DNA from: Formicincola oecophyllae
Lineage (GTDB): Bacteria; Pseudomonadota; Alphaproteobacteria; Acetobacterales; Acetobacteraceae
Assembly (NCBI RefSeq): GCF_006542395.2
Contig: NZ_CP038231.1
Span: 558,001-622,000 of the forward strand
Direction: 5' to 3'
DNA: 64,000 nt
Shown: positions 1 through 30,757 of the stretch, piece by piece
Position numbering within the stretch: the first letter of the stretch is position 1
How the letters are laid out: each line of letters opens with the position of its first letter
Notes under the pieces: model-generated
The model's input: the letters and a program-made list of their open reading frames with translations, nothing else
Databases searched by the model: none
What the model was told of the DNA's origin: nothing
Translations under genes and position numbers: made by a program

Positions 1-3000
1 TGCTTCAGCAGGCTGCCGATCCCAGTGATCTGGTTCCCGAAGGCGCCGTCAGCGTCCTGCGTCAGCTCAAGGCGCGCATTGTCAAGAACGGCGCCGGACC
101 CAAAGCTGCTCACAGACCCTGCCAACGTGCCGCCATTGATGGTGGTGCCTCCAGCGTAAGTGTTGTGCGGACCAAACACCACGGTGCCAGCGCCAGCATT
201 CACAACCGCCCCACCAGCGCCACTGACCTGGTGGTTGAAATTGGCCGTACCATTGAAGCCATCCTGGTAGCGCTGGTCAATGTTCAGCAGGCCGTCCTTG
301 GCAGCTATGGCCACATTGGAGCCATCAGCGCCAAAGCTGGTCGTGCTGCCTGTCAACGTGCCACCATTAATGGTGGTGCCACCAGCGTAGGTGTTGCCGT
401 TGGCCAGGATCAGCTCGCCGTTTCCAGATTTAGTGAGGGAGCCAGCGCCAGTGATGGTGTTGCCCGCGCCCATGCGGCGTGTGTCGTTCTGGTTGAAGGC
501 GACAACCGCCCCACCGTCCACAGCGATGGCGCCAGAGCCAAAGCTCCAGCCTGTGCCCGTCAAGGTGCCGGCTGCAATGTGCGTGCCACCCTGGTAGGCA
601 TTCTGGTCAGCCAGCGTGATGGTGCCAGCGCCCATCTTCACCAAGGTGCCTGTGCCAGACACCTGGTTAGCGAACGTGCCGTCCGTGCCCTGGTTCAGCG
701 CCAAAGTTCCATTGTCCGCCACAGCGCCAGAGCCAAAGCTTTGCGTCGTGCCCGTCAAGGTGCCCGATTGGATGATTGTGCCCCCTGTGTAGCTGTTCTG
801 TCCATTCAGGGTTACATTGCCTGTTCCAACCATGGCCAACGCGCCGTCACCGCTGATGGTGTTGCCCGCTTTCTGCATGGCTTGGCCAGCGTCATCAAAG
901 GCCAAAGCGGTGCCAGCGTCCACAGCGATGGCGCCAGAGCCAAAGCTGGTAGTGTGGCCTTGCAGGATGCCACCCTTCACGACCGTTCCGCCACTATAGG
1001 CATTGTCACCATGCAGGATGAGGGTGCCAGCATCTGTTTTGACCAGTGTGCTGCCCTTCCCGCCATGCGTTTTGGAGAAGTCACCATCACTCAACACTGA
1101 ATCGACCTCAGCTGTGATGGCCGCACCCTGCTTGGTGCCATCACCCACGCGAATGGTGGTGTTGGCTGTGCCCATGGAAAGCGCATCACCCGTAATGCGG
1201 GAAATCCGGCCATCATTGTTGGCGAAATCCAACCCTGTGAACACCACGTTGGCCTTGCCACCCTGGTCATCAACCTTCACGGTGCCTGCCTGGCCTTCAA
1301 ACACGGCAGTGCCATTGTCCCAAGCGTAGTTGTCTTGGCCGTCGGCATGCGTCCAGTTTGTCAGGCCGCTCATTTGACGCCAAACGCCATCACCACCATG
1401 GATGACGCCATCGCCTTTCATACTGGTGCCGTCCCAGAAGTTCACACTGTTGGGGCCGCCGCCAATAACCACGTTCACCTGGTGGTCAATGGAGGTTTGA
1501 AGCGTGGCAACAGTGCCGTTGGGCACCAGCAGGCTTTCACCATTGTTGGTCAGCGTACCGCCGTAGTCATAGATGCGGTAGACACCCGTGCCCAGCTCCT
1601 GAACATCAGAGGCAACCTGGTTGATCTCAAGGGTGCCGGCGAGCGCCAGATTGCCGCCAACCTTAACCAGATCGTTCAGGCCACCTTCACCCACATTGCT
1701 CAGATCCCATTTCTGGATGGACCCCTGCGCCAAATTCAAGTTGCCGTTAATAACCAGCGTGCCAGCCTGGCCAGCGCTATCGCCTGGCGAGAGGACGCCC
1801 CCAGAAGCCACCGTTACATTGCCGCCGATCACCCCTGCGCTGCCGCTGGAACCACCGCCCAATGTGGCACCCTGGTTCACTTGGACATTGCCACCCAGGG
1901 CATTGTCCACCAACAACGCGCCGGCATCCACCTGTGTCTGGCCAGTGAACTTGCTGTCGTCACCGGTCAGGCGCACAGCGCCACTGCCGTTTTTGGCCAT
2001 GGTCCCCTGGCCGGAGATCACATTGGCCAAAGTGCCATCTGTGTTCTGGTTCAGGTCCAAGCCTGCGTTCTGGTCAATGGCGATGGTGCCTGTGCCAAAG
2101 CTGCCCACACCGCCTGTCAACGTGCCTGACTGAACGGTGGTGCCCCCTGTGAAGCTGTTGTTCTGCCCCAACGTGACGTCACCCGCCGTTGCCAAATCGC
2201 CCCCACCCGTAACAGTGTTGGTGAAGTTGCCATTGCTGGCCAAAACCAGGTGGCTGTCATCACGCACAGCCTGTTGGCCGGCACCGTTGAGGTTGGTCAG
2301 CTCCAGCGTGCCGTCCTGAATGTCAGTGCCGCCGCTGTAGCTGTTGTCACCACCCAGGACAAGAACGCCCTTGCCGTCCTTGACCATCTGCGTGTGCTGC
2401 CCAACGGCGTCAATGATGCTGTTATTGATGGTGGCTGTGTTCAACGGCATGCCAGCGGCTGGCTGACCATCATTCATCACGCTGACGTCCAGCGTGCCTG
2501 TGGCCGCCTGCAAAGCGTCGCCTTGCAGAACGTAGCCAGGGCCTTGGGCCTGGTTGGCGAAGATCAGTTTCTTCACCACCACCTGGCCTTTGCTGTCATT
2601 CACATTCACCACACCGCCCAAGGCCTCAAAATAGGCATCGGCGCCAGCGTTGGTCCAGTTGGAACGGGCATTGCCGTTCACATCTGTCCAGTTCCTGTCA
2701 TTAAGGCTGGCTGTCCAGCTGTAGTTCGTGCCGGCGGCAGCCGTGCCTTGGCCTGTGAAGCCGTTGCTGCCCATGAGGGTGCCATTGCCGTTATTGGCAT
2801 CACCACCATTCCAGAACAGGCCGTTCTTGTCATAAATGACAACGTTCACCTGGTTTTTGATGGCAGTCTGGATCTGCACCATGTCGGTGGTCGGATTGGC
2901 CAAATAGCCCGTCATGTCTGCAAGCTGCAGATTGTTGAGGCCCACAGCGCTGCCTGCATAGTCCACAAGGTGCACGACACCTTCAACAAACTTGAACTTG

Positions 3001-5238
3001 TCAGGCACCACTGCTGTACCATCAGACCCTGGCAGCACATTTACCTTGGTCACACCTTGGACATTCAGGTTGCCTGCAACCTTCAACAGGTCATTGCCAG
3101 GAAGCGCCTTGGGGTCAAACGGGTTGGCCCGATCGCTTTCCGTGAAGGCCATCTGGGCACCCTGCTGCAGGTTCAGGTTGCCACCAACGCTCAACACGCC
3201 AGTGCTGTTCCTGTCGCTGCTTGTCCCAAGGGGGTCACTTTTCTGACCCGCTGCAATCAAGCCACCAGAAGCCACCGTCACATTACCCAGGACATGGCCG
3301 GCACCATTGGGGGCATAGCTGCCACCAGCCAGCATGGCGCCCTGGTTGACCTGGGCGTTGCCGCCAAGCGCGCCGTTCACCAGCATGGCGCCCTGGTTGA
3401 TGTTGGTCTGGCCTGCAAAGCCGCTGTCGTCACGCGCGATGGTCACTGTGCCAGCGCCGTCCTTGTCGAACGTGCCGTTGCCTGTCAGCTGGTTGCCGAA
3501 GGTCGCGTCGCTGCCTTGGTTGAGGTCAAGCGTGCCAGCCTGAGCCACGTTGATGGCACCTGTGCCGAAGTTGGCCGTTGTGCCTTCAAGCGTGCCTTGG
3601 TTGATGGTCGTGCCACCTGTGTAGGTGTTGGCGCCAGAGAGGACCAAGCGGCCTGCACCCTCCTTGTCCAGCGTGCCAGCCACGGCTTTGCCGTCCTGGG
3701 TGCCGTCCTTGATGATGGAGGCCACTGTGGCCTTGTTGCTGGCGTCCTCAACCGTGGCTGTCAGCTTGTTGCCTGCAATGGTCAGCGCGTCACCTGTGAT
3801 GGTGTAGCTGCCAGAAGAAGGCAGCACAGCGCTGTCTGCTTTAGAGAGGGTGCTGTCGAAGTCCAGACCTTTGACCAGAACAGCGCCCTGGCTGTCGTCT
3901 ACCTGAACCGTGCCGCCCTGGGCGGTGAAGATGGCGTTGACACCACTGTTGTCCCAGTTCGCCTGCGCGTTACCTGTCCTGTCCGTCCAGTTGCGGTTGG
4001 CCGTTGCAGCGTTCCACGTGCCGTTGCCACCCCTGATGAAACCATCGCCCGTTTGCGCAGCCGTGCCGTCCCAGTACAGGCCGTCCCTCAGGCCGTCATG
4101 GTGGGTGTTGTACACCACAACGTTCACCTGGCCCGCCTTGTTCGTCTGCAAGGACGCGCGCTCGCCGTCAGCCGTGTTCAGGTACTGCGTCAGGCTGGCA
4201 AGACCGCGCGCCTGCTCGCTCACATCGCCAAGCTTGCCGTCCGTGAACAAATGGTAGACGCCAACGTCAAACGTTGTGCCAGCTGCCGTGGGCACCATGT
4301 TGAGCGCGCCGTCAAGCGTCAGCGTGCCTGCGACCTTCACAAGGTCCCCTGTTGAGGCGTCCGCCGCCTCCAGGAAGTTCGCGTTGGAATTACCCGCCAG
4401 GTTCAGGTTGCCGCTGATGTTCAGCGTGCCTGTCTGCCCCTTGGCGTAGTCGCCAGCAAACAGCGTGCCACCAGCAGCAACGTTCACATTGCCGCCAAGC
4501 GTGCCCGTGCCGCCAAGGCTTGCGCCCTGGTTGACCTGGGCGTTGCCGCCAAGCGCGCCGTTCACCAGCATGGCGCCCTGGTTGATGTTGGTCTGGCCTG
4601 CAAAGCCGCTGTCGTCACGCGCGATGGTCACTGTGCCAGCGCCGTCCTTGTCGAACGTGCCGTTGCCCGTCAGCTGGTTGCCGAAGGTCGCGTCGCTGCC
4701 TTGGTTGAGGTCAAGCGTGCCAGCCTGAGCCACGTTGACAGCACCTGTGCCGAAGTTGGCCGTTGTGCCTTCAAGCGTGCCTTGGTTGATGGTCGTGCCA
4801 CCCGTGTAGCTGTTGGCGCCAGAGAGGACCAGGCGGCCTGCACCCTCCTTGTCCAGCGTGCCTGCACCAGTGATTTGGTTTTTGAAGGATGCGTCATGGT
4901 TTTGGTTCAAAACCAATGTGCCATTGTCAGCAATGTTGCCTGAACCAAAGCTTTGCGCAGTGCCTGTCAGCTTGCCAGCTTGATTGATGATAGTGCCGCC
5001 AGTGTACGTATTGGCGTCAGCCAGCACCACATTGCCATTGGCCGTGAGGTCACCTGTACCAGAGATGCTATTGGCAAATGTGCCATCCGCACTCAGCACC
5101 AAATGCGCATCATCCCTCACATAAGCTGTGCCAGCCCCCTTCAGGTTGGTCAGTTCCAAGGTGCCATCTTGAATGATGGTGCCGCCCGTGTAGCTGTTGG
5201 CGCCAGAGAGGACCAAGCGGCCTGCACCCTCCTTATCC

Positions 5239-5925
5239 AGGATGGTGTTGGCGGCAGTCTGGATCAGGTTGTTAGCGATGGTGGCGTGATTGTCAGCGCC
5301 ATCCACAGCCACCGTGAAGGTGCTTTCAGAGAGCTTCAGGTCACCGCCCTGGATGGTGTAGAAGCCGTCCTTGGCCAAGTTGCCAAAGTCCATGGACTTC
5401 ACGAACACTTGCCCATCAGTCTTGTTGTCGACCGTGACCGTGCCGCCATGGGCCATGAAGATGGCCTCAGCGCCCTGGTTGTTCCAATTGGCCACAGCAT
5501 TGGCGTCATGGTTGGTCCAGTTGCGGTTGCTGCTGGCGTTCCAGGTGCCGTCGCCGCCCACAAGAGTGCCGTTGCCGTTGGGGTTGCCAGCACCGTTCCA
5601 GAACAGGCCGTTCTTGTCATAAATGACGACGTTGATCTGGCCGTTCACAGCTGTCTGCAATGAAGCGCTGTCGTAACTGTTCAGGTAGGGCAGCAGGTCG
5701 GCCATGTTCAAGGCGGCGCCGCTGTCATCAAGGCCTTTGCCATAGGTGAACAGATGGTAGACGCCATCGGTGAACTTGCCATTGACGATGGCAGGCCCGC
5801 TTTTGCCTGGGGTGAGGTCAATGGTGCCGTGCAGGTCAAGTTTGCCAGCCACATTGATTAGGTCATTGCCGGCAGCGCCTGCGGTTTGGCTGCTTTCAAT
5901 GAACTGGGTTGTGGAGCCCTGCGCA
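5239..5925 (-). repeat. Alternative passenger module B (copy 1 of 3)
   Basis: A block of about 690 bp differs from the standard module, coding for GLFWNGAGNPNGNGTLVGGD, then VDNKTDGQVFVKSMDFGN and a different strand pair. It recurs at 9937-10623 and 13438-14124, with near-identical sequence at offsets of 4698 and 3501 bp. It is flanked on both sides by standard-module sequence, so it looks swapped in as a cassette within the array. Confidence 0.75.
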
Positions 5926-8900
5926 AGGTTCAGGTCGCCGCCGATGTTCAGCGTGCCTGTCTGCCCCTTGGCGTAGTTGCCAGCAAACAGCGTGCCACCA
6001 GCAGCAACGTTCACATTGCCGCCAAGCGTGCCCGTGCCGCCAAGGCTTGCGCCCTGGTTGACCTGGGCGTTGCCGCCAAGCGCGCCGTTCACCAGCATGG
6101 CGCCCTGGTTGATGTTGGTCTGGCCTGCAAAGCCGCTGTCGTCACGCGCGATGGTCACTGTGCCAGCGCCGTCCTTGTCGAACGTGCCGTTGCCCGTCAG
6201 CTGGTTGCCGAAGGTCGCGTCGCTGCCTTGGTTGAGGTCAAGCGTGCCAGCCTGAGCCACGTTGATAGCACCTGTGCCGAAGTTGGCCGTTGTGCCTTCA
6301 AGCGTGCCTTGGTTGATGGTCGTGCCGCCCGTGTAACTGTTGGCGCCAGAGAGGACCAGGCGGCCTGCGCCCTCCTTGTCCAGCGTGCCAGCCACGGCTT
6401 TGCCGTCCTGGGTGCCGTCTTGGATGATGGAGGCCACTGTGGCCTTGTTGCTGGCGTCCTCAACCGTGGCTGTCAGCTTGTTGCCTGCAATGGTCAGCGC
6501 GTCACCTGTGATGGTGTAGCTGCCAGAAGAAGGCAGCACAGCGCTGTCTGCTTTAGAGAGGGTGCTGTCGAAGTCCAGACCTTTGACCAGAACAGCGCCC
6601 TGGCTGTCGTCCACCTGAACCGTGCCGCCCTGGGCGGTGAAGATGGCGTTGACGCCACTGTTGTCCCAGTTCGCCTGCGCGTTGCCTGTCCTGTCCGTCC
6701 AGTTGCGGTTGGCCGTTGCAGCGTTCCACGTGCCGTTGCCACCCCTGATGAAGCCATCGCCCGTCTGCGCAGCCGTGCCGTCCCAGTACAGGCCGTCCCT
6801 CAGGCCGTCATGGTGGGTGTTGTACACCACAACGTTCACCTGGCCCGCCTTGTTCGTCTGCAAGGACGCGCGCTCGCCGTCAGCCGTGTTCAGGTACTGC
6901 GTCAGGCTGGCAAGACCGCGCGCCTGCTCGCTCACATCGCCAAGCTTGCCGTCCGTGAACAAATGGTAGACGCCAACGTCAAACGTTGTGCCAGCTGCCG
7001 TGGGCATCATGTTGAGCGCGCCGTCAAGCGTCAGCGTGCCTGCGACCTTCACAAGGTCCCCTGTTGAGGCGTCCGCCGCCTCCAGGAAGTTCGCGTTGGA
7101 ATTACCCGCCAGGTTCAGGTCGCCGCCGATGTTCAGCGTGCCTGTCTGCCCCTTGGCGTAGTTGCCAGCAAACAGCGTGCCACCAGCAGCAACGTTCACA
7201 TTGCCGCCAAGCGTGCCCGTGCCGCCAAGGCTTGCGCCCTGGTTGACCTGGGCGTTGCCCCCAAGCGCGCCGTTCACCAGCATGGCGCCCTGGTTGATGT
7301 TGGTCTGGCCTGCAAAGCCGCTGTCGTCACGCGCGATGGTCACTGTGCCAGCGCCGTCCTTGTCGAACGTGCCGTTGCCCGTCAGCTGGTTGCCGAAGGT
7401 CGCGTCGCTGCCTTGGTTGAGGTCAAGCGTGCCAGCCTGAGCCACGTTGACAGCACCTGTGCCGAAGTTGGCCGTTGTGCCTTCAAGCGTGCCTTGGTTG
7501 ATGGTCGTGCCGCCCGTGTAGCTGTTGGCGCCAGAAAGGACCAGGCGGCCTGCACCCTCCTTGTCCAGCGTGCCAGCCACGGCTTTGCCGTCCTGGGTGC
7601 CGTCCTTGATGATGGAGGCCACTGTGGCCTTGTTGCTGGCGTCCTCAACCGTGGCTGTCAGCTTGTTGCCTGCAATGGTCAGCGCGTCACCTGTGATGGT
7701 GTAGCTGCCAGAAGAAGGCAGCACAGCGCTGTCTGCTTTAGAGAGGGTGCTGTCGAAGTCCAGACCTTTGACCAGAACAGCGCCCTGGCTGTCGTCCACC
7801 TGAACCGTGCCGCCCTGGGCGGTGAAGATGGCGTTGACGCCACTGTTGTCCCAGTTCGCCTGCGCGTTGCCTGTCCTGTCCGTCCAGTTGCGGTTGGCCG
7901 TTGCAGCGTTCCACGTGCCGTTGCCACCCCTGATGAAGCCATCGCCCGTCTGCGCAGCCGTGCCGTCCCAGTACAGGCCGTCCCTCAGGCCGTCATGGTG
8001 GGTGTTGTACACCACAACGTTCACCTGGCCCGCCTTGTTCGTCTGCAAGGACGCGCGCTCGCCGTCAGCCGTGTTCAGGTACTGCGTCAGGCTGGCAAGA
8101 CCGCGCGCCTGCTCGCTCACATCGCCAAGCTTGCCGTCCGTGAACAAATGGTAGACGCCAACGTCAAACGTTGTGCCAGCTGCCGTGGGCATCATGTTGA
8201 GCGCGCCGTCAAGCGTCAGCGTGCCTGCGACCTTCACAAGGTCCCCTGTTGAGGCGTCCGCCGCCTCCAGGAAGTTCGCGTTGGAATTACCCGCCAGGTT
8301 CAGGTCGCCGCCGATGTTCAGCGTGCCTGTCTGCCCCTTGGCGTAGTCGCCAGCAAACAGCGTGCCACCAGCAGCAACGTTCACATTGCCGCCAAGCGTG
8401 CCCGTGCCGCCAAGGCTTGCGCCCTGGTTGACCTGGGCGTTGCCGCCAAGCGCGCCGTTCACCAGCATGGCGCCCTGGTTGATGTTGGTCTGGCCGGCAA
8501 AGCCGCTGTCGTCACGCGCGATGGTCACTGTGCCAGCGCCGTCCTTGTCGAACGTGCCGTTGCCTGTCAGCTGGTTGCCGAAGGTCGCGTCGCTGCCTTG
8601 GTTGAGGTCAAGCGTGCCAGCCTGAGCCACGTTGACAGCACCTGTGCCGAAGTTGGCCGTTGTGCCTTCAAGCGTGCCTTGGTTGATGGTCGTGCCGCCT
8701 GTGTAGCTGTTGGCGCCAGAGAGGACCAGGCGGCCTGCACCCTCCTTGTCCAGCGTGCCAGCCACGGCTTTGCCGTCCTGGGTGCCGTCCTTGATGATGG
8801 AGGCCACTGTGGCCTTGTTGCTGGCGTCCTCAACCGTGGCTGTCAGCTTGTTGCCTGCAATGGTCAGCGCGTCACCTGTGATGGTGTAGCTGCCAGAAGA

Positions 8901-9546
8901 AGGCAGCACAGCGCTGTCTGCTTTAGAGAGGGTGCTGTCGAAGTCCAGACCTTTGACCAGGACAGCGCCCTGGCTGTCGTCAACCTGAACCGTGCCGCCC
9001 TGGGCGGTGAAGATGGCGTTGACGCCACTGTTGTCCCAGTTGGCCTGCGCGTTGCCTGTCCTGTCCGTCCAGTTGCGGTTGGTGGTTGCAGCGTTCCATG
9101 TGCCGTTGCCGCCCCTGATGAAGCCATCGCCCGTCTGCGCAGCCGTGCCGTCCCAGTACAGGCCGTCCCTCAGGCCGTCATGGTGGGTGTTGTACACCAC
9201 AACGTTCACCTGGCCCGCCTTGTTCGTCTGCAAGGACGCGCGCTCGCCGTCAGCCGTGTTCAGGTACTGCGTCAGGCTGGCAAGACCGCGCGCCTGCTCG
9301 CTCACATCGCCAAGCTTGCCGTCCGTGAACAAATGGTAGACGCCAACGTCAAACGTTGTGCCAGCTGCCGTGGGCACCATGTTGAGCGCGCCGTCAAGCG
9401 TCAGCGTGCCTGCGACCTTCACAAGGTCCCCTGTTGAGGCGTCCGCCGCCTCCAGGAAGTTCGCGTTGGAATTACCCGCCAGGTTCAGGTTGCCGCTGAT
9501 GTTCAGCGTGCCTGTCTGCCCCTTGGCGTAGTCGCCAGCAAACAGC

Positions 9547-12500: not shown

Positions 12501-13047
12501 CTGGGCGGTGAAGATGGCGTTGACGCCACTGTTGTCCCAGTTGGCCTGCGCGTTGCCTGTCCTGTCCGTCCAGTTGCGGTTGGTGGTTGCAGCGTTCCAC
12601 GTGCCGTTGCCGCCCCTGATGAAGCCATCGCCCGTTTGCGCAGCCGTGCCGTCCCAGTACAGGCCGTCCCTCAGGCCGTCATGGTGGGTGTTGTACACCA
12701 CAACGTTCACCTGGCCCGCCTTGTTCGTCTGCAAGGACGCGCGCTCGCCGTCAGCCGTGTTCAGGTACTGCGTCAGGCTGGCAAGACCGCGCGCCTGCTC
12801 GCTCACATCGCCAAGCTTGCCGTCCGTGAACAAATGGTAGACGCCAACGTCAAACGTTGTGCCAGCTGCCGTGGGCACCATGTTGAGCGCGCCGTCAAGC
12901 GTCAGCGTGCCTGCGACCTTCACAAGGTCCCCTGTTGAGGCGTCCGCCGCCTCCAGGAAGTTCGCGTTGGAATTACCCGCCAGGTTCAGGTTGCCGCTGA
13001 TGTTCAGCGTGCCTGTCTGCCCCTTGGCGTAGTCGCCAGCAAACAGC
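9547..13047 (-). repeat. 3501-bp higher-order repeat, copy 1
   Basis: This segment of three modules (1143 + 1173 + 1185 bp) is repeated directly at 13048-16548 with almost no differences. One of the few visible differences lies near 11020-11050 versus 14521-14551, and there copy 2 matches a neighbouring module rather than copy 1. That mosaic pattern suggests unequal crossover followed by gene conversion. Confidence 0.85.
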
Positions 13048-16000: not shown

Positions 16001-16548
16001 CCTGGGCGGTGAAGATGGCGTTGACGCCACTGTTGTCCCAGTTGGCCTGCGCGTTGCCTGTCCTGTCCGTCCAGTTGCGGTTGGTGGTTGCAGCGTTCCA
16101 CGTGCCGTTGCCGCCCCTGATGAAGCCATCGCCCGTTTGCGCAGCCGTGCCGTCCCAGTACAGGCCGTCCCTCAGGCCGTCATGGTGGGTGTTGTACACC
16201 ACAACGTTCACCTGGCCCGCCTTGTTCGTCTGCAAGGACGCGCGCTCGCCGTCAGCCGTGTTCAGGTACTGCGTCAGGCTGGCAAGACCGCGCGCCTGCT
16301 CGCTCACATCGCCAAGCTTGCCGTCCGTGAACAAATGGTAGACGCCAACGTCAAACGTTGTGCCAGCTGCCGTGGGCACCATGTTGAGCGCGCCGTCAAG
16401 CGTCAGCGTGCCTGCGACCTTCACAAGGTCCCCTGTTGAGGCGTCCGCCGCCTCCAGGAAGTTCGCGTTGGAATTACCCGCCAGGTTCAGGTTGCCGCTG
16501 ATGTTCAGCGTGCCTGTCTGCCCCTTGGCGTAGTCGCCAGCAAACAGC
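13048..16548 (-). repeat. 3501-bp higher-order repeat, copy 2
   Basis: Second direct copy of the 9547-13047 segment, same module order (1143 + 1173 + 1185 bp) and 1167 codons long, so the frame is preserved. It abuts copy 1 exactly. Such a long near-perfect tandem duplication is prone to expansion, contraction and assembly collapse. Confidence 0.85.
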
Positions 16549-19481: not shown

Positions 19482-22400
19482 TTAGAGAGGGTGCTGTCGA
19501 AGTCCAGACCTTTGACCAGGACAGCGCCCTGGCTGTCGTCCACCTGAACCGTGCGCGCCCTGGGCGGTGAAGATGGCGTTGACGCCACTGTTATCCCAGT
19601 TGGCCTGCGCGTTGCCTGTCCTGTCCGTCCAGTTGCGGTTGGTGGTTGCAGCGTTCCACGTGCCGTTGCCGCCCCTGATGAAGCCATCGCCCGTCTGCGC
19701 AGCCGTGCCGTCCCAGTACAGGCCGTCCCTCAGGCCGTCATGGTGGGTGTTGTACACCACAACGTTCACCTGGCCCGCCTTGTTCGTCTGCAAGGACGCG
19801 CGCTCGCCGTCTGCCGTGTTCAGGTACTGCGTCAGGCTGGCAAGACCGCGCGCCTGCTCGCTCACATCGCCAAGCTTGCCGTCCGTAAACAAATGATAGA
19901 CGCCAACGTCAAACGTTGTGCCAGCTGCCGTGGGCACCATGTTGAGCGCGCCGTCAAGCGTCAGCGTGCCTGCAACCTTCACAAGGTCGCCCTGCTGGCT
20001 TGGCGTGCTTTCCAGGAAGTTCGCGTTGGAATTACCCGCCAGGTTCAGGTCGCCGCCGATGTTCAGCGTGCCTGTCTGCCCCTTGGCGTAGTCGCCAGCA
20101 AACAGCGTGCCACCAGCAGCAACGTTCACATTGCCGCCAAGCGTGCCCGTGCCGCCAAGGCTTGCGCCCTGGTTGACCTGGGCGTTGCCGCCAAGCGCGC
20201 CGTTCACCAGCATGGCGCCCTGGTTGATGTTGGTCTGGCCGGCAAAGCCGCTGTCGTCACGCGCGATGGTCACTGTGCCAGCGCCGTCCTTGTCGAACGT
20301 GCCGTTGCCTGTCAGCTGGTTGCCGAAGGTCGCGTCGCTGCCTTGGTTGAGGTCAAGCGTGCCAGCCTGAGCCACGTTGACAGCACCTGTGCCGAAGTTG
20401 GCCGTTGTGCCTTCAAGCGTGCCTTGGTTGATGGTCGTGCCGCCTGTGTAGCTGTTGGCGCCAGAGAGGACCAGGCGGCCTGCACCCTCCTTGTCCAGCG
20501 TGCCAGCCACGGCTTTGCCGTCCTGGGTGCCGTCCTTGATGATGGAGGCCACTGTGGCCTTGTTGCTGGCGTCCTCAACCGTGGCTGTCAGCTTGTTGCC
20601 TGCAATGGTCAGCGCGTCACCTGTGATGGTGTAGCTGCCAGAAGAAGGCAGCACAGCGCTGTCTGCTTTAGAGAGGGTGCTGTCGAAGTCCAGACCTTTG
20701 ACCAGAACAGCGCCCTGGCTGTCGTCAACCTGAACCGTGCCGCCCTGGGCGGTGAAGATGGCGTTGACGCCACTGTTGTCCCAGTTCGCCTGCGCGTTGC
20801 CTGTCCTGTCCGTCCAGTTGCGGTTGGCCGTTGCCGCGTTCCACGTGCCGTTGCCACCAACGATCTTCTGGTTGCCGTTGTTGGCGTCGCCGCCGTTCCA
20901 GTACAGGCCATCACGTGACGTGTTGTAGATGACCACGTTCACCTGGCCATCAATCGCCGTTTGCAACGATGCGTGGTCGCCCGCAGCCAACGTGCCCTGG
21001 ATGATGTTCAGTTCCCGGGCCGTCTCGCTGACATCCTTCAACTCGCCATTGGCGTACGTCATTAAGTGGTAAACGCCATCAGCAAGAACGGTGCCACTTG
21101 GGGTGGCGAAGTTGATCCCGCTGTCCAGCGTCAAGGCGCCCTTGACGTTCACAAGGTCATTGCCTGCGCCGCCAAATGCACCCTGTGTGCTTTCCATGAA
21201 GCTGGCTGTGGAACCCTGCGCAAGGTTCAGATTGCCGCCGATGTTCAGCGTGCCTGTCTGCTTGCTGGGGTAGTCGCCAGCAAACAGCGTGCCACCAGCA
21301 GCAACGTTCACGTTACCTGCGAGCGTGCCAGGGGTGCTGTCTGTGCCGCCGCCCAAGCTGCCGCCCTGATTGACCTGGGCGTTGCCGCCAAGCGCGCCGT
21401 TCACCAGAAGCGTGCCTTGGTCAACATTGGTCTGGCCTGTGAAGCCGCTGTCGTCAGCTGTCAGCGTGATGGTGTCAGCATTTTGCTTATTGAGTACGCC
21501 TGTGCCTGAAAGGGTGTTGGCAAAGGCCGCGTTGCTGGCCAGGTTCAGGTTCAGCGTGCCGCCATTGTCCTGGATGGCGCCTGTGCCAAAGGCATTGACG
21601 GTGCTGTTGGCGCCCTGGTCTGCCGCCGTCACCATGGCGCCACCATCAATGGTGGTGCCACCGCTATAAGTGTTAGTGCTGTTCAAGGTCAGGTCTGTGG
21701 AGGCGATTTCAACGCTACCGCCGCCAGAGATGATTTGGTTGACCGCCTGACCGTCACGCGTCGTCTGGCCCCATGTGCCCGTGGCGTCCGTGTTGAATTT
21801 CAGCGTCACGGGGTGGGTGACAGGGTCTGTGTCGTTTTGGCCCGGACGCAGGAGGATGTCGCCTGTGCCGGCGGAAAGCACATTGTCCAGGACCAGCGCG
21901 CCGCCAGCCACATCCGTGCCGCCGCTGTAAGTGTTGTTACCACTCAGCTCCAGGATGCCTTCGCCATCTTTGGCAAGTTTGGTGTGGAGGCCCGTGGCAT
22001 CCAGGATCTGGCTTTTGATGAGGGCGCTGTTCAGCGGCATCCCCACGGCCGGTTGGCCGTCATTGACCACCGAGACATCCAAGGTGGCGCCACCAGCCTG
22101 CAGGGCATCACCCTGCAAGGTGTAGGTTGGGCTGTCCGAGCTGTTCAGGACGTTGGCGAAGTGCAAGCCTTTGACTGCAACCTGGCCCTTGCTGTCATCA
22201 ATGTTGACGACACCACCCAGCCCTTCGAAATAGGCTGTGGCTGCGCCGCTGTTCGTCCAGCTGGAATTAGCTGAGCCGGTGGGGTTGGTCCAGTTGGAGT
22301 CCTGGCCGCTGGCAGACCAGGTGAAATCCTGGCCAGCCTGCACAGGGCCGCCTGTGTAACCATTGCTGCCATCAAGCTGGTTGTTGCCGTTCTGGGTGTC

Positions 22401-25400
22401 GCCACCATTCCAGTAGAGGCCGTTCTTGTCGTAAATGACGACATTGACCTGGCCCGCAATGGCGGTCTGCAATTGAGCGACATCATTGGTGGGGTCAGCC
22501 AAGTATTGGGTCAAGCTGGCCAGGTTGAGGCCAGAAAGACCAGTGGCGGTGCCCTGGTAATCAATCAGGTGGAGAACGCCATCAACGAACTTGTTGGTTG
22601 GGTTAAGCGCTGTACCAGTGGTGCCAGGCAGCACTGTCACACTGACAGGGCCGTTCACGTTCAGATTGCCCGTCACGTAAATCAGGTCATTGCCTGGGCC
22701 AGCCCAAACGTCCTTGTCGCTTTCCGTGAACTGGGCGCCAGAACCTGAATTCAAGGTCAGGTTGCCACCAATGGCCAGAACGCCTGAATGGTTGCGGTCC
22801 TGACCAGGGTTGATGGTGCCGCCCTGGTTGACCAGGACATTGCCGTTGACAATGCCAGAGGCATTGGGCTGGTCGGTGCCACCGCCCAGCGTGCCGCCCT
22901 GGTTGACGGTCAGGTTGCCGCCAAGGACGCCATTGACCAGCAATGTGCCGCCATTGACGTTGGTTTGGCCATCAAACCCGGCATCGTTAAGGCGGTCAGC
23001 ACTGCCTGGCAGGGTGACGGTACCTGTGCCGTCCTTGGTGAAGGTGCCGTTGGTGTCGCCATTGCCCTGGCTCAGCGGATTGCCTGTCAGCGTGTTGGTG
23101 AAGGTGCCGTCAAAATCCTGGTTGAGGTCAAGATTGGCATCTTGGTTGATGTAGACAGCGCCTTTGCCGAAAGTGCTGGTGGTGCCTTGCAGAATGCCTG
23201 CGCCAACCTTGGTGCCACCTGTGTAGGTGTTAGCGCCAGAGAGGACCAAGCGGCCTGCACCCTCCTTGTCCAGCGTGCCTGGGCCAGTGCTGCCGTCCTT
23301 GATGATGGATGCCACCGTGGCCTTGTTGCTGGCGTCCTCAACTGTGGCTGTCAGCTTGTTGCCAGCAATGGTCAGCGCGTCACCCTGAATGGTGTAGTCG
23401 CCCGTGCCTGGCTGGATCGCGCCCTGGCCGTTCTGGCTGTTGTCGAAGTCCAGGCCCTTGACCAGGACGGCGCCCTGGCTGTCGTCCACCTGGACTGTGC
23501 CGCCCTGGGCCACAAAGTGCGCGTCAACGCCGCTGTTGTCCCAATTGGCCTGCGCGTTGCCGTTGATATCCGTCCAATTGCGGTTGGCTGTCGCAGCGTT
23601 CCACGTGCCGTTGCCACCAACGATCTTCTGGTTGCCGTTGTTGGTGTCGCCGCCGTTCCAGTACAGGCCATCGCGTGACGTGTTGTAGACAACAACGTTC
23701 ACCTGGCCATCAATCGCCGTTTGCAACGAAGCGTGGTCGCCCGCAGCCAACGTGCCCTGGATGATGTTCAGTTCCCGGGCCGTCTCGCTGACATCCTTCA
23801 ACTCGCCATTGGCGTACGTCATTAAGTGGTAAACGCCATCAGCAAGGACGGTGTCACTTGGAGTGGCGAAGTTGATCCCGCTGTCCAGCGTCAAGGCGCC
23901 TTTGACGTTCACAAGGTCATTGCCTGCGCCGCCAAATGCACCCTGTGTGCTTTCCCTGAAGCTGGCTGTGGAACCTTGCGCCAGGTTCAGGTTGCCGCCG
24001 ATGTTCAGCGTGCCTGTCTGCTTGTTGGGGTAGTCGCCAGCAAACAGCGTGCCACCAGCAGCAACGTTTACGTTGCCTGCGAGCGTGCCAGGGGTGCTGT
24101 CTGTGCCGCCGCCCAAGCTGCCGCCCTGATTGACCTGCGCGTTGCCGCCAAGCGTGCCATTCACCAGCATGGCGCCCTGGTTGATGTTGGTCTGGCCTGC
24201 AAAGCCGCTGTCGTCACGCGCGATGGTCACTGTGCCAGCGCCGTCCTTGTCGAACGTGCCGTTGCCTGTCAGCTGATTGGCGAAGGTCGCGTCAGTGCCC
24301 TGGTTCAACACCAAGGTGCCAGCGTCAGCGATGGCGCCTGTGCCGAAGCTCTGGGTGGTGCCCGTCAAGGTGCCGCGTTCAATGTCTGTGCCACCAGTAT
24401 AGCTGTTCACGGCATTCATGGTGACGTCACCGGTGCCGATCATATTCACCCGGCCTGCGCCTGAGATGACATTGCCGGCAGCGGCCGTGTCGTTCTCAGT
24501 GTCATTGAAGGCCAGTGTGGCGTCCTGCGCCACCTGAATGGCGCCTGTGCCAAAGCTGCCACCAGCGTTGCCTGTCAGCGTGCCGGCGTTGACGTTAGTG
24601 CCGCCAGTGTAATGGTTGGCGTTCAGCAGGGTGACGTCGCCAGCGCCATTCATGTTCAGCTGGCCAGCGCCGGAAATGACGTTGCCAGAACGCTGGTTAT
24701 CGCTGCCAGCATCGTTGTAGTCCAAGGCGGCGCCTTGGGCCACATTGATGGCGCCAGTGCCGAAGCTGGTCGCGGCATTGCCGTTAAGCTGCCCACCCTG
24801 CACCAGCGTGCCGCCGCTGTAGTTGTTGGCACCTGAGAGGGTAACGGTGCCAGCGCCCGTCTTCGTCAGGCCGCCGCTTTTGCCTGTGGCGTCGTTGATG
24901 TTGCCGCTGACCAGAGCGGCGCCTTTGCTGGCATCGTCAATGTTCAGTGTCAGGCCGCTGCCCTGCTGGCCACTGCCCGCCACATTGATGTTCTTTTCAG
25001 CCACCGAGGCCGTGCCGTCAGCGAAATTGACCAGGCCGTTGGCCTTGCTGCCGTCAACGTTCAGCGCCGTGGTGCCGGCGCCATCTTTGATGGTGCTGCC
25101 AGCGCCTAAATTGATGGTGCCACCATTGCCCAGGTTCAAGATGCCGCTGGCACCCTGACCATTGGCCTGAACCAGACCGCCACCCGCCAGGTTCAGCACG
25201 CCGCCATCAACCACGTTAAGGGTGCTGGAAGAGGAGATGCCGTTATAGGAGCCGCCCTCAGCTGAAAGTTGACTGCCAGCGCCCGAAACGGTGATGGTGG
25301 CAGGCGCCGTATAGCCAGACATGAAGCCAGCCGTGCCTGAATCCACATGGGCGCCGCCCGTCACATTCAACGCCGCCGTGCCTGTGCCAGCAGCCTGGCC

Positions 25401-28400
25401 GCCCAATCCACCCAGCGTGATGCCATTCGCGTTCAGGGTTGTGCCGGCGCTATCCACATTCACGGTGCCGCTGTCGCCTGCGGCGGCGTTTTCAGCAATG
25501 CGGAGGGCTGGGTAAGCGGCCGTGGCATTAACCTGGCTGCCATTGTTGATGGTCAGCGTGGCACCGTTGGCAGCGCCAACTTCAATCGTGCCAGCGCTGA
25601 CAGTAGCGCCGGAAAGAGTGAAGGTGGTGGCGTTGGGCAAGGGGGTGCCTGCCGTGATGCTCTCCTGCCCGACCATCAGAGTGGATTGGCCAGAACCGGT
25701 CATGGTGCCGTTAAAGGTGCTGTTGCCAGCCACCATCAGGCCAGCATCGCCCAGCACCACCTGGCCTGCGCCAGAAAGGCCCATGACACGCGCGCCATGG
25801 CTCTCAGGCGTGACGGTGGAGAACGTGATGCCACCCGCCATGGGGTTACCTTGGGAATCGGTGCCCGTTTTGCCTAGGCCTGAAACGTCGAACGTGGCGC
25901 CTTTTTCAACCGTCACAGCGGAACCGCCCACGGAGCCGCCATGGTTCTGCTGGCCATTCACCGTGCCATTGACAGCGGACGCACCATCCCAGCCAAGCGC
26001 CATGGTGCCCTGCTGGATGTCAGTGGCGCCTGTGTAGCTGTTGGCACCCGTCAGCGTGAGGGTGCCCGCGCCCGTTTTGGTCAGGCCTGCGCCCGCATTG
26101 GCAGCGCCAGCTTGCAAGGTGGAGGCGATGGTGGCCTGGTTGTTGGCGCCAGCGACATTCACTGCCAAAGTCGGGCCAGCGATGGTCAGCGCGTCACCCT
26201 GAAGGGTGTAATTGCCCGTGCCGGGCTGGATCGCACCTTGGCCGTTCTGGCTGTTGTCAAAGTCCAGACCCTTGACCAAAACAGCGCCCTGGCTGTCGTC
26301 AACCTGAACTGTGCCGCCATTAGCCACAAAGTGCGCGTCAACGCCGCTGTTGTCCCAGTTCGCCTGCGCGTTGCCGTTGATGTCCGTCCAGTTGCGGTTG
26401 GCCGTCGCAGCGTTCCACGTGCCATTGCCACCAACGATCTGCTGGTTGCCGTTGTTGGCGTCACCACCATTCCAGTACAGGCCATCACGTGACGTGTTGT
26501 AAATGACAACGTTCACCTGGCCGTTGATCGCCGTCTGCAACGAAGCGTGGTCGCCCGCTGCCAAATACTGTGTCAGGCCAGCCAGTTCGCGCGCCTGCTC
26601 GCTCACATCACCAAGCTTGCCGTCCGTGAACAAATGGTAGACGCCAACACCAAATGTTGTGCCAGCCGCCGTGGGCGCCATGTTGAGGGCGCCGTCAAGC
26701 GTCAGCGTGCCTGCGACCTTCACAAGGTCACCTGTTGAGGCGTTTGTCGGCTCCAGGAAGTTCGCGTTGGAGTTACCCGCCAGGTTCAGGTCGCCGCCGA
26801 TGTTCAGCGTGCCCGTCTGCCCCTTGGCGTAGTCACCAGCAAACAGCGTGCCACTAGAAGCAACGTTCACGTTGCCCTTGATGGTGCCTACACCACCCAA
26901 TGACGCGTTTTGGGCCACGTTGGCAGCCCCACCCAGGGTGGTGTTCACAAGCATGGTGCCGGCGTTCACGTTCGCCTGGCCTGTAAAGGCGCTGTCATCA
27001 CCTGTCAGCGTGACGGTGTCCGTGCCCTGCTTGTTCAGGGTGCCTGTGCCAGCTAACTGGTTGTTGAACGTCACGGCAGCTGGGGCGCTAGCACCCATGT
27101 TGATGTTCAGCGTGCCGTTGTTCGTCACCTTGCCAGTACCCAGAGCATTGACGGTGCCATTGGCGCCTTGGTCAGCAGCCACCAAAGTGGAGCCAGCGTC
27201 AATCTGGGTGCCACCCGTGTAGGTGTTGGTGTTGGTCAGGGTGGTGGTGCCGCTTTGGCCCCAGTTGCTCCTGACTGACCCAGCGCCAGTGATAAGGTTG
27301 TTGAATGTGCCGGCAGCCCAGCCACCAAAGGACAGCTGGCCGCTGGCGCCAAGGTTGACGACCCCTGTGCCCAGGGCGTCAATGACGCCATTGGTGGTGT
27401 GGCCCGTCACCAAAGTGCCGTCCTGGATGACGGTGCCGCCCGTGTAAGTGTTGGCGCCATACATCACGATGGTGCCGGCGCCTGTCTTCGTCAGGCCACC
27501 TGGGCCCTTCGCGCTGTCCTGGATGGTGCTGTAGACGGCGTCAGAGGGGTGGGCATAGGATGAGGACGCGCCGTCATTCAAGGTCAGGCCGCTGCCCTGC
27601 TGGCCATTGCCAAGGACATTAATGACCGTGTCATGAATGCTGGCACGGTTGAGGTTGATAACGCCATTGGCCTTGCTGCCATCAACATTCAGCGCTGACG
27701 TGGCGTTGCTGCCACTGGCGTTCTGAATGTTGGCAGCATTGAGGGTGATGGTGCCGCCATTGGAGAGGTTAATGGCGCTGCCCTGGCCTGGCGTCAGGTT
27801 CAGGCCGCTGTCAACCAGCGTGCCCTGGTCAGCCACGTTGATGGTGCTGCTGGCGTTGACGCCGTTGAAGATGCCCTGGTTAGCGTCAAGCTCGCTGCCC
27901 ACGCCGGTGACATTGATGACGGACGCAGCATTCGTGCCGCTGGTGATGCCTGGCTGGGGCTGTGTGCTGCCATCGCCCTGGTCCACCACATGGGCGCCAT
28001 TGGTGACGTTGAACGTCTCCGTGCCGGTGGTGGCAGTAGTGGCGTTGCCCAGCTGCAGCCCGATGGTGTTGAAGAGGGTGCCAGTGCCATCGACATTGAT
28101 GACGTTGTTGCCGGAACCGCCCATGACGGTGCCGGCATTGGCACCATTGCCTTGGGCCACAGCATGGGCGCCATTGGTGACGTTGAACGTCTCCGTGCCC
28201 GTGGTGGCAGCGTTGCCCAGCTGCAGCCCGATGGTGTTGAAGAGGGTGCCAGTGCCATCGACATTGATGACGTTGTTGCCAGAACCGCCCATCATGGTGC
28301 CGTCATAGGTACGGGGGTGGGCAGCGCTGCCGTCACCGCCGGACCAGACCTGCATCTGCGCGCCCTGGTTGACGTTCAGGGTGTTATTGCCAGCGCCACC

Positions 28401-30353
28401 CATGGTGAGGTGGGCTGTGTTGAGGTCGAAAGTGTTTTTTGTGAACTGCGCCGCCGCTTGAGTGGCGTTGTGGCCGGAGAGCGTGATGGTGCCGCCAGAG
28501 GTGGCGCTGGTGCCGCCAACGCCCAGATTGACGTTCTGCAGCGTTGTGAACACGCTGCCGCCATTGAGGTTGATGGTGCCGCCACCATGGGAGCCGCCAG
28601 CGGCCAGGTTGTCGATTGAGATCTGGTCATTGCTGAAAGTGACGGCGTTCTGGTTGCCGCCGCTGACCAAAATGGTGGCGCCGTTGAAGCCAGCCGTGGC
28701 ACCTGTGTTGCCTGTGATGGTGCCATTGGCGAAGTTCTTGCTTGCAACGCCATCATCAATCAGCAGGGTGTTGTTGCCAAGCAGCACAGCGCCGCCATTG
28801 CCGGTCAGGCCCTTGATCTCGGCGCCCTGGCTGTAAAGGCCAGCGCTGTCCTGCCAGGATTTGGCAGTGCTGATATCGAAAACAGGCTTGCTGTCATCAA
28901 TGGCGGAGCTTCCCGCATCATTGGGGTCATTGTCATTAGGATCATTGGGATTATTGGGATTATTAGGTGGAGTGGCAGGATGGCTAGGGTCGGCTTGTTT
29001 CCAGTTGTAATCCCAATGACCAGAGGTAGTGCTATTGGCAATGGCACTACCTTTACCCAAGGCGGTGACATCAACAACGCTTGAGGACGCGATGGAACCA
29101 GCGCCGCTGAGGCTCAGCGTACCGCCATTGATGTGCGTGGCGCCTGTATAGGTGTTGGCGGCCGTCAACACCACCTTTCCAGCGTCCTGCATGGTGACGT
29201 CGCCAGCACCCTGGATGATGCTTGAAAGGGCCTCGATGTTCTGGGCAGGGCGCGCGGCCCCCTGGGTGGACGTCTGACCACCAAAAGTGCCTTCGCCCTT
29301 GTAGATCTGCTGGTCCAGGACAAGGTGGGCACCGTTCTCGATGGTGATGAACGGTGTGTTTTGCCCACCGCTGTAACTGGCGCTGGCGCCACCCAGGCCG
29401 ATGACGTCAGCCACCAGGGTGCCACCCTGGATGTCAATCCCGCCAGGGAAGCTGTTCAGCCCGCCAAGAAGAAGCGTGCCACCGCCTTGCTTAACGAGTT
29501 CAACAGAGTTGTTGCCACCAGCGCCAGCCGTACCGTCAGGGCTGTTGAGGCTGGTCCAAATCAGGGCCTGACCAGGGCCAGAGGTGGTAACGTTCACATT
29601 GAAGGTGCTGCCGCTGGGCTGGATGTAGCCATTGTCCAGCTCATAGGCCGTGGTCTTGTCACCTGACTGGTCGTCAAAGGTCAGCGAGTTAACGTTGAAC
29701 GGCGTGACGGTGTAGGTGGTGGTGCCGTTGTTATCGTAAGGATCGTAGGGGTTATCTGCCGTGTAGTTGCTGGTTAGGACGTCAACGGCTTTAGCTGGGT
29801 TGGCCCATTGGTATTTGGCGCCCTGAAAAACAGCGTCACCACCTGGGTTCCAGTTCTGACCATTGCCATTGCTGTTGTTCCATGGGTGTGAACCACCAGC
29901 CAGGTTAGTGGTGGTATTCCAAGCGCCGTTATAGCCATTCCATGTTTCAGGGTTGGCCAGCGCCCCCACATTGCCAGCGCCCACTGTGCCAGGCGCGGCT
30001 GCCAGGGTGAGGAGGCCGCTTGGCTCCGCATTCAAGTTCATCACGCCAAGCTTAGGCACAGCTGGGTAATCAGCGCTGGCCGTATCCAAGGTGGCGCTGT
30101 TCCTAAGGGCAAGGAGGCCACCAGGCCTTTGGGCGTGGCGGGCGCGTGCCTCCAAAGCGCGGCGCGTGGCACGGTTGGGGCGGGTGTAAGACTGCCCCTT
30201 GCCGTAAGCGTCACGTAATTTGTCTTGCAAGTCTGAACTATCATCAAGGGCTTGCGCCTTGCCATAAGTTGGCACAGCCACAAGGGCCGTCATGCCCAGC
30301 AGCGCAAGCTTGCGGATGAAAGTGCGGGGGCTTGGGGTGGCTGAAGGAAGCAT
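19482..30353 (-). CDS. Giant autotransporter passenger, N-terminal part (beta-strand repeat protein)
   Basis: This is the N-terminal 3623 residues of a very large surface protein. I chose the start at 30353 because it opens a signal peptide: basic FIRK at residues 12-15, a hydrophobic stretch, then a GKAQA cleavage site ending near residue 35. An in-frame start at 30509 would add 52 residues in front of it. The rest is Gly/Asn/Thr-rich beta-helix sequence with many copies of the autotransporter-associated strand repeat (LTKTGAGTVTLSGANNYSGGT is typical). Longer modules contain GLYWNGGD, GNGTWNAATANRNWTD and GGTVQVDDSQG. Known relatives are secreted through a C-terminal outer-membrane barrel and act as adhesins or surface layers. 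As assembled, a one-base insertion near 19555 throws the frame and the protein ends at 19482 without a barrel. The same frame resumes below 19079, so I read this as the first third of one gene. Confidence 0.85.
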   Translation of the reverse strand: MLPSATPSPRTFIRKLALLGMTALVAVPTYGKAQALDDSSDLQDKLRDAYGKGQSYTRPNRATRRALEARARHAQRPGGLLALRNSATLDTASADYPAVPKLGVMNLNAEPSGLLTLAAAPGTVGAGNVGALANPETWNGYNGAWNTTTNLAGGSHPWNNSNGNGQNWNPGGDAVFQGAKYQWANPAKAVDVLTSNYTADNPYDPYDNNGTTTYTVTPFNVNSLTFDDQSGDKTTAYELDNGYIQPSGSTFNVNVTTSGPGQALIWTSLNSPDGTAGAGGNNSVELVKQGGGTLLLGGLNSFPGGIDIQGGTLVADVIGLGGASASYSGGQNTPFITIENGAHLVLDQQIYKGEGTFGGQTSTQGAARPAQNIEALSSIIQGAGDVTMQDAGKVVLTAANTYTGATHINGGTLSLSGAGSIASSSVVDVTALGKGSAIANSTTSGHWDYNWKQADPSHPATPPNNPNNPNDPNDNDPNDAGSSAIDDSKPVFDISTAKSWQDSAGLYSQGAEIKGLTGNGGAVLLGNNTLLIDDGVASKNFANGTITGNTGATAGFNGATILVSGGNQNAVTFSNDQISIDNLAAGGSHGGGTINLNGGSVFTTLQNVNLGVGGTSATSGGTITLSGHNATQAAAQFTKNTFDLNTAHLTMGGAGNNTLNVNQGAQMQVWSGGDGSAAHPRTYDGTMMGGSGNNVINVDGTGTLFNTIGLQLGNAATTGTETFNVTNGAHAVAQGNGANAGTVMGGSGNNVINVDGTGTLFNTIGLQLGNATTATTGTETFNVTNGAHVVDQGDGSTQPQPGITSGTNAASVINVTGVGSELDANQGIFNGVNASSTINVADQGTLVDSGLNLTPGQGSAINLSNGGTITLNAANIQNASGSNATSALNVDGSKANGVINLNRASIHDTVINVLGNGQQGSGLTLNDGASSSYAHPSDAVYSTIQDSAKGPGGLTKTGAGTIVMYGANTYTGGTVIQDGTLVTGHTTNGVIDALGTGVVNLGASGQLSFGGWAAGTFNNLITGAGSVRSNWGQSGTTTLTNTNTYTGGTQIDAGSTLVAADQGANGTVNALGTGKVTNNGTLNINMGASAPAAVTFNNQLAGTGTLNKQGTDTVTLTGDDSAFTGQANVNAGTMLVNTTLGGAANVAQNASLGGVGTIKGNVNVASSGTLFAGDYAKGQTGTLNIGGDLNLAGNSNANFLEPTNASTGDLVKVAGTLTLDGALNMAPTAAGTTFGVGVYHLFTDGKLGDVSEQARELAGLTQYLAAGDHASLQTAINGQVNVVIYNTSRDGLYWNGGDANNGNQQIVGGNGTWNAATANRNWTDINGNAQANWDNSGVDAHFVANGGTVQVDDSQGAVLVKGLDFDNSQNGQGAIQPGTGNYTLQGDALTIAGPTLAVNVAGANNQATIASTLQAGAANAGAGLTKTGAGTLTLTGANSYTGATDIQQGTMALGWDGASAVNGTVNGQQNHGGSVGGSAVTVEKGATFDVSGLGKTGTDSQGNPMAGGITFSTVTPESHGARVMGLSGAGQVVLGDAGLMVAGNSTFNGTMTGSGQSTLMVGQESITAGTPLPNATTFTLSGATVSAGTIEVGAANGATLTINNGSQVNATAAYPALRIAENAAAGDSGTVNVDSAGTTLNANGITLGGLGGQAAGTGTAALNVTGGAHVDSGTAGFMSGYTAPATITVSGAGSQLSAEGGSYNGISSSSTLNVVDGGVLNLAGGGLVQANGQGASGILNLGNGGTINLGAGSTIKDGAGTTALNVDGSKANGLVNFADGTASVAEKNINVAGSGQQGSGLTLNIDDASKGAALVSGNINDATGKSGGLTKTGAGTVTLSGANNYSGGTLVQGGQLNGNAATSFGTGAINVAQGAALDYNDAGSDNQRSGNVISGAGQLNMNGAGDVTLLNANHYTGGTNVNAGTLTGNAGGSFGTGAIQVAQDATLAFNDTENDTAAAGNVISGAGRVNMIGTGDVTMNAVNSYTGGTDIERGTLTGTTQSFGTGAIADAGTLVLNQGTDATFANQLTGNGTFDKDGAGTVTIARDDSGFAGQTNINQGAMLVNGTLGGNAQVNQGGSLGGGTDSTPGTLAGNVNVAAGGTLFAGDYPNKQTGTLNIGGNLNLAQGSTASFRESTQGAFGGAGNDLVNVKGALTLDSGINFATPSDTVLADGVYHLMTYANGELKDVSETARELNIIQGTLAAGDHASLQTAIDGQVNVVVYNTSRDGLYWNGGDTNNGNQKIVGGNGTWNAATANRNWTDINGNAQANWDNSGVDAHFVAQGGTVQVDDSQGAVLVKGLDFDNSQNGQGAIQPGTGDYTIQGDALTIAGNKLTATVEDASNKATVASIIKDGSTGPGTLDKEGAGRLVLSGANTYTGGTKVGAGILQGTTSTFGKGAVYINQDANLDLNQDFDGTFTNTLTGNPLSQGNGDTNGTFTKDGTGTVTLPGSADRLNDAGFDGQTNVNGGTLLVNGVLGGNLTVNQGGTLGGGTDQPNASGIVNGNVLVNQGGTINPGQDRNHSGVLAIGGNLTLNSGSGAQFTESDKDVWAGPGNDLIYVTGNLNVNGPVSVTVLPGTTGTALNPTNKFVDGVLHLIDYQGTATGLSGLNLASLTQYLADPTNDVAQLQTAIAGQVNVVIYDKNGLYWNGGDTQNGNNQLDGSNGYTGGPVQAGQDFTWSASGQDSNWTNPTGSANSSWTNSGAATAYFEGLGGVVNIDDSKGQVAVKGLHFANVLNSSDSPTYTLQGDALQAGGATLDVSVVNDGQPAVGMPLNSALIKSQILDATGLHTKLAKDGEGILELSGNNTYSGGTDVAGGALVLDNVLSAGTGDILLRPGQNDTDPVTHPVTLKFNTDATGTWGQTTRDGQAVNQIISGGGSVEIASTDLTLNSTNTYSGGTTIDGGAMVTAADQGANSTVNAFGTGAIQDNGGTLNLNLASNAAFANTLSGTGVLNKQNADTITLTADDSGFTGQTNVDQGTLLVNGALGGNAQVNQGGSLGGGTDSTPGTLAGNVNVAAGGTLFAGDYPSKQTGTLNIGGNLNLAQGSTASFMESTQGAFGGAGNDLVNVKGALTLDSGINFATPSGTVLADGVYHLMTYANGELKDVSETARELNIIQGTLAAGDHASLQTAIDGQVNVVIYNTSRDGLYWNGGDANNGNQKIVGGNGTWNAATANRNWTDRTGNAQANWDNSGVNAIFTAQGGTVQVDDSQGAVLVKGLDFDSTLSKADSAVLPSSGSYTITGDALTIAGNKLTATVEDASNKATVASIIKDGTQDGKAVAGTLDKEGAGRLVLSGANSYTGGTTINQGTLEGTTANFGTGAVNVAQAGTLDLNQGSDATFGNQLTGNGTFDKDGAGTVTIARDDSGFAGQTNINQGAMLVNGALGGNAQVNQGASLGGTGTLGGNVNVAAGGTLFAGDYAKGQTGTLNIGGDLNLAGNSNANFLESTPSQQGDLVKVAGTLTLDGALNMVPTAAGTTFDVGVYHLFTDGKLGDVSEQARGLASLTQYLNTADGERASLQTNKAGQVNVVVYNTHHDGLRDGLYWDGTAAQTGDGFIRGGNGTWNAATTNRNWTDRTGNAQANWDNSGVNAIFTAQGAHGSGGRQPGRCPGQRSGLRQHPL
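27990..28301 (-). repeat. 168-bp tandem duplication inside the passenger
   Basis: Two consecutive copies of a 56-residue unit beginning MGGSGNNVINVDGTGTLFNT lie here. Matching DNA starts at 28095 and 28263, exactly 168 bp apart. The second copy in protein order carries a small ATT insertion in its LGNATT segment. This is a local, older duplication distinct from the large 395-codon array. Confidence 0.7.
28905..28980 (-). repeat. Asn/Pro/Asp-rich linker in the passenger
   Basis: The protein here reads as a run of Asn-Pro and Asp-Pro steps (PPNNPNNPNDPND and onward), made by short imperfect repeats of ATTGGGATT type on the plus strand. It interrupts beta-helix sequence and is likely a flexible, disordered linker between two passenger domains. 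The repeated short DNA units could vary in number by slippage. Confidence 0.6.
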
Positions 30354-30389: not shown

Positions 30390-30757
30390 GTTAACCTTTA
30401 TATAGTTAACGAACCCTCGCCACCGCAAGGATTTGTTAACCAACAAGCCTGAGAATTTCATGACCGTGTTCTGGAACACACAGGAAAATTTTGAGAGTTT
30501 GGCAGGCAATCAAGTAAAAACCGCCCTATTCCAGCAGGTAAAATCCACGTTTTTCTTAAGTAAAACGTTCACGGCTGGGACTTGCCAATGCCCTGCTGCA
30601 CGGCGTTAAGCCAGGGATAAGCTTGGAATCGCTCAAAACCACCTGTTGTTGGGAAACGTGATGAGGGCAGGCAGTTAAAATGCAAAACCAATACAGTTTA
30701 AAATATTAATGGTTAACGCCTTCCCCTTCCCAGCGCTGTGGAAGGAGCTTCGTTAAC
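30390..30757. promoter_or_regulatory. Cluster of GTTAAC palindromes between divergent genes
   Basis: Five GTTAAC palindromes lie in this AT-rich gap upstream of the autotransporter, at 30390, 30405, 30435, 30712 and 30752. The one at 30709-30716 is part of ATGGTTAA, the reverse complement of the TTAACCAT half-site of CtrA-type regulators. The one at 30435 gives TTAACCAA, and 30753-30768 gives TTAA-N8-TTAA. CtrA control of the surface protein is an inference. The 30354-30926 gap (573 bp) holds no gene I can support. Confidence 0.35.

Follow-up and report, generated by a model that had tools for sequence, protein, structure and literature searches.

In type Va secretion, the protein is exported by Sec, its C-terminal barrel is inserted with the assistance of BAM, and the passenger folds at the cell surface in the C-to-N direction, beginning at the autochaperone. 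These passengers usually function in adhesion or aggregation. ShdA, the EprS-like proteases, fusolisin, and Ssp share a signal peptide, a PATR β-helix, an autochaperone, and a 12-stranded barrel. The passengers of characterized autotransporters, including those of the PATR type, have 193–3,374 amino acids (PMC9289746).

Another known system with very long, repetitive surface fibers is BadA of Bartonella henselae, which varies by recombination between repeats. BadA has 2,920–4,407 amino acids (PMC8859334), but it belongs to another family: it is a trimeric (type Vc) protein with a neck-stalk organization. BadA fibers of 3,973–4,407 amino acids measure 238–243 nm (PMC8859334).

The locus that we describe here resembles the PATR-type autotransporters in its domains, but it differs from the characterized ones in the length of its passenger. 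It probably consists of one gene, which would encode a monomeric adhesin of about 10,842 residues from the classical (type Va) class of autotransporters.

Extent and reading frame of the gene

We analyzed a 64,000-nucleotide stretch of DNA (the window), which is C1:558001-622000 of a 1.96-Mb genome in three contigs. This is the sole genome of its genus in our comparison set, and its size, its G+C content, and its relatives suggest that the family is Acetobacteraceae. According to the original prediction, a single minus-strand frame with one clustered break runs from position 30353 past the left edge of the window, for about 10,100 codons and with no end in sight. We confirmed the frame and the break, but the frame does end: in flanking DNA that we fetched, there is a stop at C1:555828, which is 2,172 bases to the left of the window. 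From the ATG at window position 30353 to this stop, the gene has 32,526 nt or 10,842 codons, which is 1.7% of the genome, and its predicted product is about 1.08 MDa. The features of the gene and its upstream region are as follows (positions are in the window unless C1 is given).

30390–30757, no strand assigned: upstream region with five GTTAAC palindromes (motif count)
30249–30353, minus strand: Sec-type signal peptide, MLPSATPSPRTFIRKLALLGMTALVAVPTYGKAQA (read from the translation)
20859–30248, minus strand: N-terminal passenger, with β-strand repeats and several diverged copies of a 395-aa module (profiles and BLASTP)
3337–20858, minus strand: array of near-identical 1,185-bp (395-aa) modules, about 17.5 kb (self-BLAST and tiling)
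19080–19555, minus strand: clustered frame break, with a shift that lasts for about 0.48 kb, across a pair of neighboring repeat copies, before the frame is restored (alignment of copies)
1–3336, minus strand: the part of the C-terminal passenger that is within the window, with PATR repeats and unique sequence (profile searches)
C1:555894-556721, minus strand: PF03797 barrel (E = 2.6e-38, above the curated cut-off)

Except for the break cluster at about 19080–19555, the passenger and the barrel are in one frame. This frame is open from window position 30353 to 19484, is shifted from about 19555 to 19080, and then reopens and continues past position 1. The other two sense frames of the same 32.5 kb contain 413 and 414 stops, so the giant open frame is not due to chance.

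The differences between the module copies also bear on whether the frame is used. Among seven full-length copies, codon position 1 varies at 7 sites, position 2 at 0, and position 3 at 19. The corresponding pN/pS is 0.14 in frame, versus 1.2 and 12 in the alternative frames; as the copies are linked by recombination and shared descent and are not independent, we consider these ratios to be a strong sign and not a formal test. Because the in-frame differences are mostly at the third codon position, the giant frame looks translated, and the module copies appear to be under purifying selection.

The Sec signal peptide at the N terminus (30353–30249) was read directly from the translation. By eye, it has a basic n-region, a hydrophobic core, and an AQA-like cleavage site. 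It is possible that translation begins instead at an in-frame ATG about 36 codons upstream of 30353, within the cluster of GTTAAC palindromes. GTTAAC occurs nine times in the 64 kb (5.1 expected), and five of these are within the 370 bp before the autotransporter gene. Also, the spaced pair GTTAAC-N5-15-GTTAAC occurs just once in the genome, at 30390–30410. The cluster is a possible group of binding sites for a regulator.

The passenger and its anchor

The passenger was originally described as β-strand repeats of the autotransporter type, and profile searches bear this out: PATR (PF12951) and TIGR02601 matched many stretches in each part of the passenger that we scanned. (The scan covered the passenger outside of positions 6003–9002 and 12603–19025, which are both made of copies of scanned repeats.) For instance, the N-terminal passenger has 15 stretches of PATR (E = 9.6e-73) as well as a match to TIGR02601 (E = 4.4e-84), and the diverged copies of the module in this region are 43–69% identical. 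The array contains nine full-length copies, two copies of 1,156 bp, partial copies, and a higher-order repeat of 3,501 bp. The copies within the array are 97–100% identical, and outside of the broken copies, their spacings are multiples of 3. We did not find a protease domain in the scanned parts of the passenger.

The profile of the module matches passengers with solved structures, namely Ssp, fusolisin, and a fragment of IcsA. An AlphaFold model of the module has a mean pLDDT of 77, with high values over roughly the first 160 of the 395 residues, and this model is similar to Ssp (5.3e-6 in Foldseek). By BLASTP, the module is similar both to the last 700 residues (1e-30) and to the first 700 residues (3e-9), which suggests that each module may repeat the design of a small passenger. 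The in-frame passenger contains no cysteine, which fits a chain that must remain unfolded in the periplasm. Three cysteines are present in the translated pieces: one is in the out-of-frame tail and two are just before the barrel.

One check originally proposed was to look left of the window for a barrel that ends in an aromatic residue, and we found one there. Between the window and C1:555828, the gene encodes further PATR repeats, an autochaperone-like junction, a helical linker, and the PF03797 barrel, in that order. This is the only match to PF03797 in the genome. The protein ends with ...SLKIHF, so the terminal residue is phenylalanine. We modeled the last 490 residues with AlphaFold, using nine relatives. 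In the model (mean pLDDT of 72, with the first 85 residues being poor), a helix of 41 residues leads into 12 long strands. When we compared it to known structures with Foldseek, the top 17 matches were all autotransporters (8e-14 for the best match), and the matches to the barrel include AaaA, EstA, AIDA-I, NalP, Hbp, EspP, and BrkA. The protein has these features of type Va autotransporters: a Sec signal peptide, a passenger that is a right-handed β-helix with an autochaperone segment (according to profiles and structure prediction), and a 12-stranded PF03797 barrel that ends in an aromatic residue.

The length of the array and the frame break

The length of the array could be an artefact of assembly, in which case the true gene would have fewer (or more) of the 395-aa modules. 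At a distance of 3,501 bp from each other, there are stretches with 100% identity over kilobases, and the likely errors in the sequence sit within the array. Nevertheless, this explanation seems doubtful to us, as most of the copies have substitutions of their own (26 variable sites among seven copies), and similar arrays are found in relatives whose assemblies are nearly closed, such as the 13 × 846 bp array in G115 (two contigs). Even if the array contained just one module, 5,396 codons would remain, and the gene would still be longer than every other barrel frame among the matches listed.

The other concern is the frame break. All six of the internal in-frame stops lie between window positions 19484 and 19085. 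When we aligned the nine full-length copies, the first two were found to have three one-base excesses between them, which bound the shifted stretch, and the other seven had none. As assembled, the gene comprises a frame of 3,624 codons that has the signal peptide but not the barrel and a frame of 7,084 codons that has the barrel but not the signal peptide. If the break is real, then either the gene was recently inactivated or the break is an off-switch, and the cell would have an anchorless product of 3,623 amino acids and a silent remainder of 7,084 codons. The break is, after all, present in the assembly, and one of the differences is outside of homopolymer runs. There is also a precedent, in that BadA was lost by frameshift in two of eight strains of B. 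henselae (PMC8859334).

Still, we think that a genuine break is unlikely. Decay would not be expected to place three breaks inside 0.48 kb and spare the remaining ~32 kb: the probability that three random indels in the gene would fall within 476 bp is about 7e-4. The shifts sum to a multiple of 3, but they enclose the six stops, so this is not a working compensation. And the copies downstream of the break maintain pN/pS of 0.14, although a very recent loss would leave no trace there. Instead, the cluster is probably a residual error of the consensus or the assembly, in repeats to which short reads cannot be assigned.

Taking the break literally would give two long frames, but we rejected the idea of two adjacent autotransporter genes (or of an N-terminal exported protein next to a separate barrel protein) as very improbable, because both flanks of the break are within one repeat array and in the same frame, and there is no barrel where the first frame ends and no signal peptide where the second one starts. 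We also rejected a trimeric (type Vc) autotransporter, as the anchor is PF03797 and the Pfam scan gave no match to the YadA anchor.

Size, relatives, and proposed product

We compared the length of the gene to those of other autotransporters. A search with the barrel as the query covered 397 members of the family and gave matches in 47 of them, including the source genome; the longest other barrel frame was 4,543 amino acids. Using PF03797 as the query, the longest other frames were 4,058 amino acids (397 genomes from the order) and 4,324 amino acids (398 genomes from the phylum), in each case among the best-scoring ~155 matches listed. Together, the searches covered about 900 distinct genomes, with matches listed by score, so that longer frames might be missing from the lists if their barrels scored poorly. 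An intact product of 10,842 residues would be over twice the length of any other barrel frame listed from these ~900 genomes and three times the length of the largest characterized passenger. Both this survey and the published range fit the original statement that autotransporters mostly have 500–4000 residues. No autotransporter of about 10,842 residues is reported in the literature that we searched, which included few subscription journals and which we consider to be weak evidence.

Far larger bacterial genes than this one exist, and its length is extreme for an autotransporter but not for a bacterial gene in general. The suggestion that it is one of the largest bacterial genes was too strong, as over 41,000 proteins above 5,000 amino acids have been catalogued across life (PMC11573180).

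Two other genera from the same family have related autotransporters with tandem repeats. G069 encodes a 2,069-aa autotransporter (L033:7656-13865) with PATR repeats and about four tandem, near-identical units of 1,083 bp (361 aa); its barrel and junction are 55% identical to those of our protein. However, its repeat unit is unrelated to the 395-aa module over most of its length (39% identity over 86 amino acids by BLASTP, or at most a PATR-like stretch). For the N-terminal ~1,000 residues of the G069 protein, BLASTP gave no match. G115 encodes a 4,543-aa autotransporter (L034:1766-15397) whose barrel region is 39% identical, and its 13 copies of an 846-bp unit each encode 282 amino acids. The G115 unit is not recognizably related to the 395-aa module (BLASTP E of about 4). 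The G115 units are 100% identical over the 300-nt stretches that we compared, which could reflect very recent amplification, strong homogenization, or assembly. Other relatives contain shorter in-frame repeats, with best periods of 663, 1,146, 1,227, and 261 bp. In all of the relatives with a period found, the spacings of the repeats are multiples of 3. When we used the N-terminal region as the query, we found no relative among 60 genomes.

Because the three types of unit share at most a PATR-like stretch, while the barrel is common to all of them, the sequences suggest that passenger units were amplified independently on a shared anchor. On balance, we lean towards an intact, single-chain type Va autotransporter of about 1.08 MDa, within a group of Acetobacteraceae in which these proteins have repeatedly become longer, in each genus on its own, as whole passenger modules were amplified in frame.

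If so, the chain would be exported by Sec, and then its C-terminal 12-stranded barrel would be inserted by BAM. The cysteine-free passenger would be threaded out and would fold at the surface, from its autochaperone-like C-terminal end outward, to form a very long right-handed β-helix of repeated 395-aa modules. Each module would have PATR turns, followed by an autochaperone-like stretch and finally by a W-rich segment that resembles the start of the passenger. The gene would grow by in-frame unequal recombination between modules. By analogy, the most likely role would be adhesion or autoaggregation, either on the host gut or in a biofilm. The sequence itself shows the frame, its ends, the domains, the signature of selection, and the structure of the repeats; export, folding, adhesive function, the mechanism of growth, and the production of one intact chain by the cell are what we infer for this protein.

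Each turn of a β-helix takes up about 22 residues and adds 0.48 nm to its length. From about 10,400 residues, we estimate that the folded fiber would be about 0.2 μm long (0.23 μm), and that the extended chain would be about 3.8 μm. A contour length of microns, as was originally proposed, would be true only for the unfolded chain. The predicted length of the folded fiber is near that of the longest BadA fibers (PMC8859334).

If the protein is intact, it would raise the upper limit on what can be self-secreted through the outer membrane, with a passenger of about 10,500 residues that would be kept unfolded in the periplasm and then translocated and folded without ATP. Also, with unrelated units on the same barrel, the three genera provide a comparative case for how fibers may lengthen by module amplification in acetic acid bacteria with small genomes.

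Elsewhere in the genome, we found no match to SSU rRNA in the three contigs (the same search missed 5 of 14 controls) and no Rfam match in the two small contigs. It is possible that the rrn operon is plasmid-borne, as in Oecophyllibacter. Finally, a BREX-type BrxC/D ATPase and a TerB-domain protein are encoded to the left of the autotransporter gene, at L002:7956-11687 (C1:547956-551687), and this region may be a phage-defense island.
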